Positions 13,789 to 20,208 of a DNA stretch of 32,385 nt are shown piece by piece (the stretch's first letter is position 1; each line of letters begins with the position of its first letter). The notes beneath the pieces were generated by a model. That model was given only the letters and a program-made list of their open reading frames with translations. It was not told where the DNA came from and did not search any database. This DNA is from Gemmatimonadota bacterium (GTDB lineage Bacteria > Latescibacterota > UBA2968), in assembly GCA_028874765.1 (NCBI GenBank), contig JAPPIE010000083.1, positions 1-32,385 of the forward strand. Reading direction: 5' to 3'. The translations under genes and the position numbers were made by a program.

Positions 13789-14452
13789 TTCCCCCGACCT
13801 GTTGGAAACCCTCGCGCTTGCACGCGATTTTCTATCGCGAGAAATCGCTTATGCCCCCGTCTCGGTGGCGCGGATGGATGACCGGAAATCAGACGCTGAT
13901 TCCCTGACTATTTTGGGTCAAGAGGTTTCCAACTGTCAAAAATGTGGACTGGCGCAAACGCGCACCTCAGTCGTGTTTGGAAGCGGAAAAACTAATGCAG
14001 ACCTCATGTTTGTCGGTGAAGCACCCGGTGCGGAAGAAGACCGGCGGGGGTTGCCTTTTGTAGGGGCTGCTGGAGAACTGTTGACGCGCATGATCGAAGC
14101 CATGGGTTTGACGCGCGAAGACGTCTATATCGCCAACATTATCAAATGCAGACCCCCCAATAACCGGGATCCCAAACCCGATGAAATTGCCGAATGTCAG
14201 CCTTATCTACTACAACAAATTGATTTGATTGCGCCGGTTGTAATCTGTACTTTGGGACGTTTTGCCGCGCAAACCCTGTTGCAAACCACCGAGTCGATGG
14301 GGCGTTTGAGGGGAAAAATTTTTGAATACCAGGGCGCGAAATTAGTCCCCACATATCACCCTGCTGCCCTGTTGCGAAATGCACACTGGAAGCGCCCTGC
14401 CTGGGAAGACTTGAAACTCGTTCGCAAACTTTACGATGGAACTAAAATCTGA
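13781..14452 (+). CDS. Family 4 (type a) uracil-DNA glycosylase, Fe-S
   Basis: A 223-residue protein that removes uracil from DNA after cytosine deamination. The four cluster cysteines of family 4 enzymes are visible as C52 and C55 (CQKC), C123 and C139, the last two in the CRPPNNRDP...EC segment with the usual spacing. The catalytic motif [17 protein letters not shown] is at residues 79-95, and the second motif HPAALLRN follows at 193-200. The ATG at 13781 has GGGAG upstream and overlaps coaBC by 8 nt. The first ~45 residues are less conserved than the core, as in many members. It overlaps dnaB by 1 nt (TGATG). Confidence 0.92.
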
Positions 14453-15825
14453 TGGCCTCCCAAAATTCGACATTGAACACGGCTGAACGCGCGCTACCCC
14501 AGGCACTCGAAGTCGAACGCGCTGTATTGGGCGCCATGTTGATTGACAATATGGCAATCAATCGCGTGGTAGAAGTACTGGGGGATGAAACGGCTTTTTA
14601 TCATACACCGCATCGAAAAATCTATGCGGCAATTCAAAAATTATCTGAGCGCGGCGAGCCCGTCGATCAGGTCACACTCACTGCAGAACTCTTGCGGCGA
14701 GGACAACTCGAAGATATCGGCGGTGCGGTTTTAATTGCCGAACTGGCCAGTGAAATGGCGACGGCGGCCAATGCCGAATACCACGCGCAGATCGTTCTGG
14801 AGAAGGCGCAGAGGCGGCGGTTGATATCCGCAGCGACCCAAACGCTTACCGAAAGCTATGAAGAAACCGAGGATGTGCGCGAACTCATCGACCGTGCCGA
14901 ACAACGGGTCTTTCAAATTGCCGAAGGTGAATTGGGCAAAGGCGTCATGTCCCTTGCATCCGCAATTGAAGAGGCTTATGTAGCGATTGAGCGCGCGCAC
15001 GAACAGCCCGGCGCGCTGACTGGCGTGACCACGGGATATACGGACCTGGATGAAATCACAGCAGGCTTGCAGTCTTCGGACATGATCATCCTCGCATCGC
15101 GTCCATCGATGGGCAAAACAGCACTCACATTGTGCATGGCGCGCAATGCCGCCGTGAAGGGCAGTACACCCGTGCTGTATTTTTCTCTGGAAATGTCAAC
15201 AGAGCAACTCGCACAGCGACTTTTGTGTGCAGAAGCGCGCGTGAGTTCGCACCGTTTGCGAACGGGCAGGCTATCAGAAGAGGAATGGCAACGATTATCC
15301 GAGTGGACGGGAAAGCTCATTGAAGCCCCCATATACATCGATGACACACCTGCTATTTCCGTCATGGAACTGCGTGCCAAAGCGCGACGCGCAAAATCCG
15401 AATACAATATTGAGTTAATCATTGTCGATTATCTACAACTGATGACCGCATCTGAAAATTTTGGCAGCCGCGAACAAGAAATCGCCTATATTTCGCGGTC
15501 TTTGAAAGCTCTCGCCAAAGAACTCGATATTCCGATCGTTGCCTGCGCGCAATTATCGCGGGCTGTGGAAAGTCGCACGGATAAACGACCACAATTGGCT
15601 GATTTGCGTGAGAGTGGTTCGCTGGAACAGGACGCGGATGTGGTGATGTTTCTCTTTCGCCCCGAAGTATATGGCATTGTAGATGAAGAGGGCAATACGC
15701 AAGAAGGTAGAGCCGAGATCATTTTGGGCAAGCAGCGCAGCGGGCCGATTGGCAGCGTTTTTTTAGTCTTTCAGGCAGAGTTCCTCCGCTTTGAAGAGCC
15801 CGAAATCTATCGCGATTTTCCCTGA
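14452..15825 (+). CDS. dnaB: Replicative DNA helicase DnaB
   Basis: A 457-residue hexameric helicase that unwinds the replication fork. The N-terminal DnaB domain starts with PQALEVERAVLGAML (residues 16-30). The linker precedes a RecA-like ATPase with P-loop ASRPSMGKT at 215-223. Walker B is IELIIVDYLQLM, and the arginine-finger region contains ADLRESGSLEQDADVV. The length is normal and there is no intein. The gene follows the glycosylase with a 1-nt overlap and lies 12 nt before radA, giving a replication and repair group. Confidence 0.97.
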   Translation: MASQNSTLNTAERALPQALEVERAVLGAMLIDNMAINRVVEVLGDETAFYHTPHRKIYAAIQKLSERGEPVDQVTLTAELLRRGQLEDIGGAVLIAELASEMATAANAEYHAQIVLEKAQRRRLISAATQTLTESYEETEDVRELIDRAEQRVFQIAEGELGKGVMSLASAIEEAYVAIERAHEQPGALTGVTTGYTDLDEITAGLQSSDMIILASRPSMGKTALTLCMARNAAVKGSTPVLYFSLEMSTEQLAQRLLCAEARVSSHRLRTGRLSEEEWQRLSEWTGKLIEAPIYIDDTPAISVMELRAKARRAKSEYNIELIIVDYLQLMTASENFGSREQEIAYISRSLKALAKELDIPIVACAQLSRAVESRTDKRPQLADLRESGSLEQDADVVMFLFRPEVYGIVDEEGNTQEGRAEIILGKQRSGPIGSVFLVFQAEFLRFEEPEIYRDFP

Positions 15826-15837
15826 GGAATATAGCCC

Positions 15838-17205
15838 ATGGGCAAAGTGCGCGTGCGGTATGTATGTCAGCAATGCGGTGCTGATTCGGGACGGTGGTTT
15901 GGTCGGTGCGTATCCTGTGGCGAATGGAACACCTGTGTCGAAGAACAGGCATCGCCCGAGGAAAAACAAAACAGACGCGCGGACGAATGGGTCAAAGCAA
16001 ATCCGCCGCAACCGATTACGGAAGTGGTGGGGGGCAGAGAAGACCGCATTGAAACGGCCATCGGCGAATTTGACCGCACATTGGGTGGCGGCATAGTGCC
16101 CGGCATGGCTGCGCTTGTTGGCGGCGATCCCGGCATTGGCAAATCCACATTGCTGTTGCAAGGGGTCGCACAACTCGCATTTTCGGGTATGAAGGCACTG
16201 TACGTATCCGCAGAAGAATCCCCTCGCCAAACGCGGATGCGCGCCCAAAGAATCGGCGCGTTATCCGATGAATTGTACTTGATTTCTGAATCCAATCTCG
16301 ATCTGATTTGCGGCTACATCGAAGAAATGCAGCCCATCGCAGTTGTCGTCGATTCGGTGCAGACCATTTTTAGCCCAGATCTACAAAGCGCGCCGGGAAG
16401 TGTGGCACAGGTCAGAGAATCTTCTGCAAGACTGGTCGCACTGGGCAAACGCACGGGCACATCGATTTTTTTAATCGGACATGTCACCAAAGAAGGCACC
16501 GTTGCAGGGCCGCGCGTGCTCGAGCACATCGTCGATACCGTACTTTATCTGGAGGGCGAACAACACGGTGCGTTTCGCATTTTGCGGGCGGCCAAGAACC
16601 GGTTTGGATCGACAAATGAAATTGGCATTTTTGAAATGTGTGATCGGGGAATGGTCGAAGTGGATAATCCCTCACAGGTATTCTTGCCCGAGCGCGAGGC
16701 CGAGCGCGAAGGCACAGCCATTGTTTGCACAATTGAAGGTACACGTCCCATTTTGGTCGAAGTGCAAGCACTGGTCAGCCGCAGCAATTTCGGATACCCG
16801 CAGCGCGTGGCCACGGGATTTGATGCCCGGCGAATGGCGATTTTAATTGCCGTGCTCGAAAAACGGTCGGGCCTGCAATTGGGAACTGAAGATATTTTCT
16901 TAAATGTCGCAGGGGGCTTGCGTATCGACGAACCCGCTGTCGATCTGGGTGTAGCTATGGCTATGGCGTCGAGCTTTCGCAGCAGACAGATGTACCGCGA
17001 TACGGTTGTAATTGGCGAAGTTGGGTTGGGTGGAGAAGTGCGTGCGGTTGGTCAAATTGAACGCAGAATGACCGAAGCGCGCAAACTGGGCTTCACGCGG
17101 TGTATTGCCGCCAAAGCAAATTTGAGTGGCGCGCGCATTCCCGATGGCCTGTCGTTGATTGGCGTTCAGGATGTGGATGCCGCGCAAGATGTGGTGTTTT
17201 CATAG
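15838..17205 (+). CDS. radA: DNA repair protein RadA
   Basis: A 455-residue RecA-related ATPase that processes branched recombination intermediates. An N-terminal zinc finger uses C10, C13, C24 and C27 (VCQQCG and CVSCGEWN). The P-loop is GGDPGIGKST (95-104). The RadA-specific KNRFG motif is present (AAKNRFGSTNEIG). The C-terminal Lon-like domain keeps VAGGLRIDEPAVDLGVA and GEVGLGGEVR. GAGG precedes the start. In Firmicutes radA sits beside disA and RadA modulates DisA; here kptA and a different class of diadenylate cyclase follow. Confidence 0.97.
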   Translation: MGKVRVRYVCQQCGADSGRWFGRCVSCGEWNTCVEEQASPEEKQNRRADEWVKANPPQPITEVVGGREDRIETAIGEFDRTLGGGIVPGMAALVGGDPGIGKSTLLLQGVAQLAFSGMKALYVSAEESPRQTRMRAQRIGALSDELYLISESNLDLICGYIEEMQPIAVVVDSVQTIFSPDLQSAPGSVAQVRESSARLVALGKRTGTSIFLIGHVTKEGTVAGPRVLEHIVDTVLYLEGEQHGAFRILRAAKNRFGSTNEIGIFEMCDRGMVEVDNPSQVFLPEREAEREGTAIVCTIEGTRPILVEVQALVSRSNFGYPQRVATGFDARRMAILIAVLEKRSGLQLGTEDIFLNVAGGLRIDEPAVDLGVAMAMASSFRSRQMYRDTVVIGEVGLGGEVRAVGQIERRMTEARKLGFTRCIAAKANLSGARIPDGLSLIGVQDVDAAQDVVFS

Positions 17206-17229
17206 AGATTATTATTACGGAGAAAGCGC

Positions 17230-17853
17230 ATGGCACCGAGAATTGTACACATTTCCAAATTGTTGTCATTGATGTTGCGACACAGGCCCGATGAGTTTGG
17301 ACTACAAGTCGATCGCTATGGTTTTGCCGACCTCGATGCGGTTTTAAGTGCATTTCAAGACCGAAATTCGACATTTACTCTTGAAGATATTGAAAAAGTG
17401 GTTTATGATGGAGAAAAGCAACGTTTCGAGATTGTGGAAAACCGCATTCGAGCGCGTTATGGACACAGTTTTTCCATTGATCTGGGTCTCGACCCGTCAG
17501 AACCCCCCGAATTTCTGTATAAAGGAGTAGATTCTGCCGATGCTGAGCGATTATTATCCGAAGGCTTGGCACCAGATGATCGCGATTATGTACATTTGTC
17601 GTTTGATGCCGATGTCGCCGCGAGGTTAAGCGCCAGACCCGGACGCCGAGGGGCTGTCATACGCATTGCTGCGACACGCGCCCATCAGAGTGGCGTGCAT
17701 TTATACGATTGTGGCCCAACCGTATTGACCAAACATATTCCTGGGGAATTTTTGGATTTAGAACGGGGAGGGGGCATAACATCACATAACATATCCCAGG
17801 AACGAGAGAATGTAACTTATGGGCGGCGGCGACGCTTCTCATCCCGGCGGTAG
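17230..17853 (+). CDS. kptA: KptA/Tpt1-like RNA 2'-phosphotransferase
   Basis: A 207-residue protein matching KptA/Tpt1, which moves an RNA internal 2'-phosphate to NAD+. The first catalytic pair is R17-H18 in LSLMLRHRP. R74 lies in RIRARYGHS, matching the family RIRAxQGHS motif with Tyr for Gln. The NAD-binding region is altered: FLYKGVDS replaces LYHGT, and SARPG replaces the usual G-x-RHG. VHLS is kept, as is a later ALTK-type segment (TVLTKHIPGEF). A tail of about 30 residues ends in a basic GRRRRFSSRR patch. The native bacterial role is unsettled, since bacteria lack the tRNA-splicing route used in yeast. GGAG precedes the ATG. The family call is firm but activity is less sure. Confidence 0.85.
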   Translation: MAPRIVHISKLLSLMLRHRPDEFGLQVDRYGFADLDAVLSAFQDRNSTFTLEDIEKVVYDGEKQRFEIVENRIRARYGHSFSIDLGLDPSEPPEFLYKGVDSADAERLLSEGLAPDDRDYVHLSFDADVAARLSARPGRRGAVIRIAATRAHQSGVHLYDCGPTVLTKHIPGEFLDLERGGGITSHNISQERENVTYGRRRRFSSRR

Positions 17854-17888
17854 TAAATAGTTGTTTTGGACATGTTCACAAGGCCAGA

Positions 17889-18821
17889 ATGACCTTCTCA
17901 CAAAAGCGTTTTATGGCTAACTCCCACAAAAACCACACGCAGTCCTTGCTGAGTACCGCCAAAAATTTGGCTCGGGAAACCTGCGCCGATATGATCCTGC
18001 TCGTGGCCGATTCCGACGTGAGCCACACTGATGTACTCAAGTTAAACACCACCTGCCAGGTCCTGATTGTTACGCGGGAAAAACACTTTTTGAAAGGTGT
18101 TGAAGAGAAGGGTGTACAGCGTTTGACTTATGATTATCGCCTGGGCAATGACACGCACTTCGAACAGTTGCGACAATGCGTTATCAGAGGCATGGAGAAT
18201 GGGTATATTCGCCGAGATACGCGACTGGTATGCCTGAGTCATATGCTGGCTTCTCGGGGTGTGGATGCGATAACGATGATGGATACCAGTATTGGGTTTG
18301 ATATATACGATTCGGCAAAAATCTCAGCCATAGCAGGCGATCTACCACTCAAAGTTGTCAAAACCACGCTCGATCTTTCCATCGATATTGGTAAGGAAGG
18401 TCGCGAAGGCGAACCGGTTGGCACCTTATTTGTCATAGGCGATTCCAAGCGGGTTTTGCACCATTCGCGGTCCATGACATTTGATCCTTTTCGTGGATAT
18501 TCCGATAAAGAAAAAAATATCTGCAATCCCGATGTTCACGAAGGTGTCAAAGAAGTATCGCTAATGGATGGTGCATTTATCATTCGGGAAGATGGGGTTA
18601 TCCTATCTGGAGGGCGCTATATTTCAGCGAGTGCACGCGGTCTCACCTTGCCCAAGGGGTTGGGCGCACGGCATGTGGCGGCGGCGGCGATTACCAAAAC
18701 CACCCGGGCCATCGCCCTGGCTATTTCTGAGTCAACCGGAACGGTTCGAGTATTTAAACAGGGCAAAATCGTTTTGCAAATCAACACACACCGGTGGCAC
18801 ATTGGACAAGACCAGCGGTAA
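17889..18821 (+). CDS. Diadenylate cyclase, DacZ-like (PK_C-like N-terminus plus DAC domain)
   Basis: A 310-residue protein whose C-terminal half is a DisA_N/DAC domain that would make cyclic di-AMP from two ATP. The DGA motif is at 227-229 (LMDGAFII). The RHR motif appears as RHV at 261-263 (GARHVAAAAIT), followed by AISESTG. The N-terminal ~150 residues resemble the pyruvate-kinase C-terminal-like domain of archaeal DacZ rather than the DisA helical and HhH DNA-binding parts or the CdaA membrane helices. It is therefore predicted to be cytosolic. The start at 17889 has AAGG upstream; the ATG at 17913 has none. It lies 35 nt after kptA and downstream of radA. Confidence 0.8.
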   Translation: MTFSQKRFMANSHKNHTQSLLSTAKNLARETCADMILLVADSDVSHTDVLKLNTTCQVLIVTREKHFLKGVEEKGVQRLTYDYRLGNDTHFEQLRQCVIRGMENGYIRRDTRLVCLSHMLASRGVDAITMMDTSIGFDIYDSAKISAIAGDLPLKVVKTTLDLSIDIGKEGREGEPVGTLFVIGDSKRVLHHSRSMTFDPFRGYSDKEKNICNPDVHEGVKEVSLMDGAFIIREDGVILSGGRYISASARGLTLPKGLGARHVAAAAITKTTRAIALAISESTGTVRVFKQGKIVLQINTHRWHIGQDQR

Positions 18822-18898
18822 CGAATAGACGGATCAACGGACCCCGCCCATCCTCCCAAAATCAGTATGTATTTCCATTCGTCCATTCGTCTATTCGT
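18821..18898 (+). repeat. Inverted repeat (14-nt arms) between cyclase and glycosyltransferase genes
   Basis: ACGAATAGACGGAT (18821-18834) can pair with ATTCGTCTATTCGT (18885-18898) over 14 positions with one G:U wobble in RNA, around a ~50-nt loop. The right arm is part of the octamer array at 18876-18907. No T-run follows, so it does not look like an intrinsic terminator. Confidence 0.5.
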
Positions 18899-18907
18899 CT
18901 ATTCGTC
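18876..18907 (+). repeat. Octanucleotide tandem repeat, four copies
   Basis: Four head-to-tail copies of (C/T)ATTCGTC occupy 18876-18907: two CATTCGTC and then two TATTCGTC. They end 11 nt before the glycosyltransferase start codon. Such an array can gain or lose units by slippage. Confidence 0.85.
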
Positions 18908-18918
18908 GAGAGATACTT

Positions 18919-20208
18919 ATGCAGCGGTGGATCGTGCCCCTTTTGATGGGGTTGGTCATGACGAGCAGTTTTGCTGCGATGCCGGCATTGGGCCTGCCGG
19001 TTTTTTTTGTACTTTTTGGCATTGCATCTGTGGCCTATCTCATTGCAGTCTGGCATTGTGAATATATGCCATTGACGGCTATTGTGATCGCTGCCGCTGT
19101 GTTCCGGCTTAGCCTTTTGTTTTCCTTCCCAGCGCTGTCCGATGATATTTATCGCTATGTATGGGATGGACGCGTACAGTGGGCGGGTATCAACCCCTAC
19201 CGGTTTGCACCTGCAGCACAAGAACTGGCGCATGTACGAGACGCGCTCATTTTTCCTAAAATTAACCACCCCGAATTGCCGACCATTTATCCGCCCATCG
19301 CTCAAATAGCATTCTGGGTGGGATATGGCATTTCGGGTGGCATACTGGGTATCAAGGTGCTACTCGCAGGTGCCGACCTGATTGCGGGATGGCTTATAGT
19401 CTGTTTGCTCAGGCATTTTGGGCAGCGGACACAATGGGTTTTGATTTACTTCTGGCATCCGCTGGTCGTAGTGGAAATTGCTGGCAATGGACATCTCGAA
19501 TCGCTGGGCATTGTCGCTTTATTGGCTGCATTGTATCTATTCTTAAAAGGGCGAGACCGCATCGCGCTAAGTGCGCTGGGTGGGGCTGTTCTGGTGAAAT
19601 TCTTCCCCCTTGTTTTTTTTCCGAATCTCGTGCGTTGGAAAGGGTGGCTGCCAACCAATTGGCCCGCTCTGCTCATGGTACCCTGTGTCATACTTCTGGG
19701 ATATTTGCCCTATGCGTGGACCGGCGTGCCTGTTTTGGGTAGCCTGGGTACTTATGCACAACACTGGTCATTTAACAGCGCGGTATTTGATATACTCATT
19801 CAGCTTTGCGGCAATGGACAGATAGCGCGTGGCATTATTGGCCTGGTCTTTTTAAGTGTTGTTCTGTTTCTGGTCTGGAAGCGGATTCCCCTGTTGCGCT
19901 GCGCATATTTGACTGCGGCGGCCTTTGTTCTACTCACCCCCACGCTCCATCCGTGGTATGTCTTGTGGTTAATTCCATTTCTCGTTTTCTTTCGGCATCC
20001 GCCCTGGATCGCTTTCTCACTCTTGGTGGTCTTATCCTATCACATATTGATCCAATACCAGGCCCGTGGTATATGGGAAGAAGCCGCATGGGTCCAATGG
20101 GTAGAATATGGTGGATTAATACTGGTAGGTATCCTGTCTTTGCTTCTCAAGCGCACAGAAATCTTGACGAAAATAGGACGTTTTTTTAATATACACCGTC
20201 CAATCTGA
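18919..20208 (+). CDS. GT-C fold membrane glycosyltransferase (GT87/DUF2029 or PIG-M/MptA-like)
   Basis: A 429-residue multi-spanning membrane protein with about ten hydrophobic helices. After the first helices comes an acidic loop motif, LSDDIYRYVWDGRVQWAG, typical of GT-C enzymes that take sugars from polyprenyl-phosphate carriers. The next loop holds NPYRFAP. Further motifs are HPLVVVEIAGNGHLE in the middle and a late HPWYVLWL segment, all common in bacterial GT87 or mannosyltransferase-like families. It probably transfers a hexose from a lipid-linked donor on the outer face of the inner membrane. Acceptor and sugar cannot be told. The ATG at 18919 follows GAGAG and the octamer array. Confidence 0.75.
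   Translation: MQRWIVPLLMGLVMTSSFAAMPALGLPVFFVLFGIASVAYLIAVWHCEYMPLTAIVIAAAVFRLSLLFSFPALSDDIYRYVWDGRVQWAGINPYRFAPAAQELAHVRDALIFPKINHPELPTIYPPIAQIAFWVGYGISGGILGIKVLLAGADLIAGWLIVCLLRHFGQRTQWVLIYFWHPLVVVEIAGNGHLESLGIVALLAALYLFLKGRDRIALSALGGAVLVKFFPLVFFPNLVRWKGWLPTNWPALLMVPCVILLGYLPYAWTGVPVLGSLGTYAQHWSFNSAVFDILIQLCGNGQIARGIIGLVFLSVVLFLVWKRIPLLRCAYLTAAAFVLLTPTLHPWYVLWLIPFLVFFRHPPWIAFSLLVVLSYHILIQYQARGIWEEAAWVQWVEYGGLILVGILSLLLKRTEILTKIGRFFNIHRPI

Follow-up and report, generated by a model that had tools for sequence, protein, structure and literature searches.

The window analysed here, a 32,385-nucleotide stretch of a Latescibacterota genome, encodes a bacterial diadenylate cyclase (DAC) of the DacZ/CdaZ type, whose catalysis is predicted from conserved motifs; we consider it probable that this enzyme serves general c-di-AMP functions, that its locus stems from one ancestral insertion, and that RadA, encoded two genes upstream, is a neighbour by position and not a partner. 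An open reading frame (ORF) check found radA, kptA and the DAC gene as consecutive genes on the forward strand, placed as in an earlier sequence-only reading of this DNA (Table 1). Measured between the longest ORFs, the gaps are 24 nt (radA/kptA) and 35 nt (kptA/dacZ); the second becomes 59 nt if dacZ begins at the ATG at 17913, which, judged from the sequence, is more likely than a start at 17889 because stop codons fall between or before the first two ATGs in orthologues. These short gaps fit an operon. The nearest named relatives are Candidatus Latescibacterota MAGs (DacZ identity 86-97%).

Table 1. Features of the radA-kptA-dacZ locus, in window coordinates.
Feature	Position	Strand	Evidence or remark
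dnaB, replicative helicase, upstream anchor of cluster	14452..15825	+	PF03796, 360 bits
radA (sms), 455 aa	15838..17205	+	TIGR00416, 599 bits
kptA/tpt1, NAD-dependent RNA 2'-phosphotransferase, 207 aa, basic C-terminal tail	17230..17853	+	PF01885, 100 bits
dacZ, diadenylate cyclase (predicted), 302 aa from likely start	17913..18821	+	ORF 17889-18821, 310 aa
DacZ N-terminal PK_C-fold (DacZ_P) domain, residues 1 to about 124	17913..18284	+	AlphaFold model and Foldseek; sequence profile search
DAC catalytic domain of DacZ, DGA/ARH/SES motifs	18396..18770	+	PF02457 match; motif comparison

The DAC domain of the window protein (PF02457) scores 75 bits against a cut-off of 27, over residues 170-294. 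The N-terminus is matched by PF21755 (DacZ_P; 24.5 bits, just below the cut-off of 27.4) and by PK_C (16.8 bits), both below their curated cut-offs in this protein; all three domains were matched in each of 12 aligned orthologues, some of which have higher N-terminal scores than the window DacZ. The N-terminal sequence profile aligns with the C-terminal domain of pyruvate kinase (residues near 378-480). Modelled in full with AlphaFold (mean pLDDT 82), the protein matches DAC structures and, lower down, pyruvate kinase; when the N-terminal domain was modelled alone (pLDDT 79, pTM 0.77) and compared with the PDB using Foldseek, the top 50 matches were all pyruvate kinases (best E = 7e-7, TM about 0.6), which bears out the DacZ-like architecture with a PK_C N-terminus proposed in the sequence-only reading. 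That reading had also held that the DNA-binding part of DisA is missing, and had named DisA linker helices as the alternative for the N-terminus. Neither the linker nor the DNA-binding domain gave a match in Pfam or NCBIfam, and on these searches and the fold search we reject the N-terminus as DisA or its linker. DisA has an N-terminal DAC domain, a linker and a C-terminal DNA-binding domain, whereas the DAC domain of the window protein is C-terminal and is preceded by a PK_C fold. DacZ likewise has no match to PF19293 (CdaA_N, transmembrane), the domain found in a CdaA-type DAC of the same order (genome G020).

The DacZ/CdaZ class itself is already known, and is known to include some bacteria (Myxococcales, Planctomycetales and Gemmatimonadales; PMC6741144). 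As in DacZ of Haloferax volcanii, CdaZ of Methanocaldococcus jannaschii and their bacterial homologues (PMC6741144), a PK_C-fold N-terminus is combined with a C-terminal DAC domain and the same motif set, and the protein is, as often in this family, the single DAC of its genome (the whole window genome was searched, and no second, hidden DAC was found). The window gene differs in being bacterial and in lying beside kptA, whereas the haloarchaeal gene lies beside an mscS gene. The protein is too divergent for the cut-off of the NCBIfam DacZ equivalog (NF041371, short name Diadnylcyc_Halo; E = 2e-48, yet 165 bits where the cut-off is 430), so we place it in the broader PK_C-DAC family and not in the haloarchaeal equivalog. 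A pyruvate-kinase-type effector loop was considered as a conserved phosphate site and rejected: most members of the order match it, and the window protein and those from outside the phylum do not.

Among 64 genomes sampled from the phylum, the DacZ type is confined to one order (21 genomes, in families f1 and f2), and kptA and dacZ are adjacent in all 21. The three-gene order, whose conservation in related genomes the sequence-only reading had made a test of its proposal, is found in 15 of the 21, with radA upstream of kptA-dacZ; it is therefore neither chance nor an assembly artefact. The remaining six (G020-G023 of f2; G027 and G028 of f1) have no RadA match above the cut-off anywhere in the genome, and there dnaB is followed directly by kptA-dacZ within one contig (the fetched loci span all six, with shorter stretches for G022, locus L046, and G021, locus L063). 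It appears that radA was lost naturally in both families, with the cyclase gene left undisturbed. In the sister family f3, genome G018 carries yicC-gmk-coaBC-udg-dnaB-radA-kptA followed by S58 peptidases, with no dacZ at this position and a CdaA-type DAC encoded elsewhere. Taken with the radA-less loci, this cluster indicates that radA-kptA can exist without dacZ and that dacZ needs no radA.

We then compare this with the situation outside the phylum, where a bacteria-wide sample of 386 genomes yielded 21 DacZ-type proteins. The neighbourhood survey suggested in the sequence-only reading gave no example of linkage: neither radA nor kptA lies near any of the 21 genes in the fetched neighbourhoods (mostly 6-7 kb per side, less for the short contigs of L109, L115 and L116). 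A scan of 90 neighbour proteins revealed no recurrent neighbour of dacZ, with no family in more than four (the simple gene caller misassigned a few loci), and neither RadA nor KptA is among the 25 commonest neighbour families. PF01885 was matched in 21 further genomes of the sample, and in the 20 kptA neighbourhoods examined neither radA nor a DAC gene was found (0 of 20); the tblastn search used was sensitive enough for KptA, because it recovers the outside KptA proteins themselves at E <= 1e-22. As far as sampled, the radA-kptA-dacZ order is a trait of one Latescibacterota order.

The two neighbours of the cyclase were examined as proteins in their own right. RadA matches TIGR00416 at full length (model positions 1-452; cut-off 403 bits). 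The gene between radA and the cyclase encodes the NAD-dependent RNA phosphotransferase that the sequence-only reading had recognized there: its PF01885 score is well above the cut-off of 26, the closest solved chain is 9ld4 (E = 5e-28), and the catalytic Arg-His-Arg-Arg tetrad described for KptA/Tpt1 (PMC6333775) is intact (R17, H18, R65 and R118). The window KptA thus resembles other KptA/Tpt1 RNA 2'-phosphotransferases in its full domain and tetrad, and differs from them by a basic tail after a linker and by having a DAC gene as neighbour. Such a linker and tail, of the type FGR(K/R)xR..RR, form the KptA C-terminus in this phylum (window; L045, L051, L061, L066, L067, L070 and L072), KptA from some other phyla has comparable basic tails (L176-L179), and the tail perhaps serves RNA binding.

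Whether kptA and dacZ are linked in function is a separate matter from the role of RadA. Such a link would rest on one ancestral event, and we regard it as unlikely, although the two genes stand side by side in every one of the 21 order genomes, also after radA loss, with a gap of as little as 5 nt in genus g7. KptA identity between genera of the order is about 51-67%, and several genera have insertions that break the gene order just 3' of dacZ, our local yardstick for gene-order conservation; that kptA-dacZ is kept while the order downstream breaks could mean selection on the pair. A biochemical connection can also be drawn: in pyruvate kinase the effector bound by the PK_C fold is a phosphorylated sugar (PMC6741144), and KptA releases phosphorylated ADP-ribose (PMC6333775); but the pyruvate kinase S-G-x-S/T loop is missing from part of the orthologues and reads S-D-V-S in the window DacZ. 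Three genomes outside the phylum have both DacZ and KptA, and all keep the genes apart (on different contigs in G091 and G198, or 1.4 Mb apart in G336), and in one order member (G025; L038 6944-6967) a strong, terminator-like hairpin with a 10-pair stem stands between kptA and dacZ. A literature search for KptA together with c-di-AMP or RadA found no paper joining them. That the two genes are dedicated to each other in this bacterial order seems to us very unlikely. If the pair were functional, it would give KptA a role in bacteria, where its function has been puzzling (PMC6333775), and would provide the PK_C domain of DacZ with an effector.

The sequence-only reading had gone further and suggested that this locus may be a second, independent link between RadA-type repair and c-di-AMP. 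One explanation of that kind is a second checkpoint: acting at damaged forks, RadA would hold back the neighbouring cyclase, as it restrains DisA in Bacillus subtilis. Precedents exist: in vitro, RadA/Sms lowers DisA activity about 20-fold (PMC8645862), radA-disA is an operon in Corynebacterium (PMC9960051), and the window locus resembles radA-disA of Firmicutes and Actinobacteria in that a DAC gene lies shortly after radA, two genes away in the 15 genomes noted above. The window cyclase, however, belongs to another class and is without the Holliday-junction-binding part of DisA, a further gene intervenes, and radA is dispensable at the locus, being absent from both locus and genome in six of 21 order members in which kptA-dacZ is intact. 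The sister family has dnaB-radA-kptA without dacZ. In a radA-linked c-di-AMP module, radA and the DAC gene would stay linked wherever the DAC gene occurs, but the linkage is seen in 15 of 21 genomes in the order and for none of the 21 genes outside the phylum. Control of DacZ by RadA is accordingly highly improbable in our judgement, and the suggested connection with repair probably comes down to gene position alone. Since radA can vanish from the locus while the DAC gene stays as it was, proximity of radA to a DAC gene is no evidence of a RadA checkpoint.

The reading that we prefer, a cyclase with general functions, draws on the remainder of the c-di-AMP system. All 21 genomes of the order encode a PgpH-type 7TM-HD protein, PgpH being a known c-di-AMP phosphodiesterase family, and in the window genome its gene lies away from dacZ. 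With DacZ as its only DAC and a PgpH-type phosphodiesterase present, this Latescibacterota genome is likely to have a DacZ/PgpH c-di-AMP system. TrkA_C proteins, which are possible c-di-AMP receptors, are also present. No c-di-AMP (ydaO-type) riboswitch was found in the order; the only one in the 64 phylum genomes is in G018 (L159). That DacZ is degenerate, or makes a product other than c-di-AMP, seems very unlikely, given that, despite a score far under the archaeal equivalog cut-off and RHV where CdaA has RHR, its DGA, G-(A/S)-RH and SE(S/T) motifs recur, with a few departures, in most of the 21 DacZ proteins of bacteria outside the phylum, and that it is the lone DAC in genomes all of which retain PgpH.

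CdaA-CdaR (YbbR) is the usual bacterial DAC system, and DACs of the CdaA type occur in the other families of the phylum. These share with DacZ the DAC domain and c-di-AMP synthesis (predicted for DacZ), but have their own membrane N-terminus and a YbbR part. The DACs of G018 (L126) and of G020, G023 and G024 (L131, L132 and L133) look like single CdaA_N-DAC-YbbR chains, with CdaA and CdaR fused (Pfam-tested for G020, with YbbR matches from a separate search). CdaA-YbbR is present in genera g7 and g8 of family f2 and gone from family f1 and genus g6, where the one DAC match per genome is DacZ. The f2 fusions read RHA in place of RHR, and are possibly weakened cyclases beside DacZ. The simplest account of these sequences is that DacZ was gained beside kptA in the ancestor of the order and that CdaA-YbbR was later lost in part of the order. 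The standard CdaA-YbbR enzyme would thereby have been replaced by an archaeal-style PK_C-DAC protein as the only c-di-AMP synthase, with both kept in g7 and g8.

We propose that dacZ was inserted once, ancestrally, at the end of the housekeeping cluster yicC-gmk-coaBC-udg-dnaB-radA-kptA, and would since have been inherited vertically, while the older CdaA-YbbR cyclase disappeared from part of the order. In the protein, a pair of facing DAC domains would join two ATP molecules into c-di-AMP, as the conserved motifs suggest, and the PK_C-fold domain is probably an effector-binding or oligomerisation module. c-di-AMP has a known role in potassium and osmotic homeostasis, and DacZ, as the only DAC of this Latescibacterota family, probably acts with the PgpH phosphodiesterase in general roles of this kind.

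Two minor features lie downstream of dacZ. Window positions 18919-20208 encode a 429-aa protein, apparently multi-spanning in the membrane, with no Pfam or NCBIfam match. Between dacZ and this next gene, at 18874-18907, there is a tandem array with 4.2 copies of the octamer TCCATTCG, and the gap in which it sits is shorter in several genomes of the same genus.
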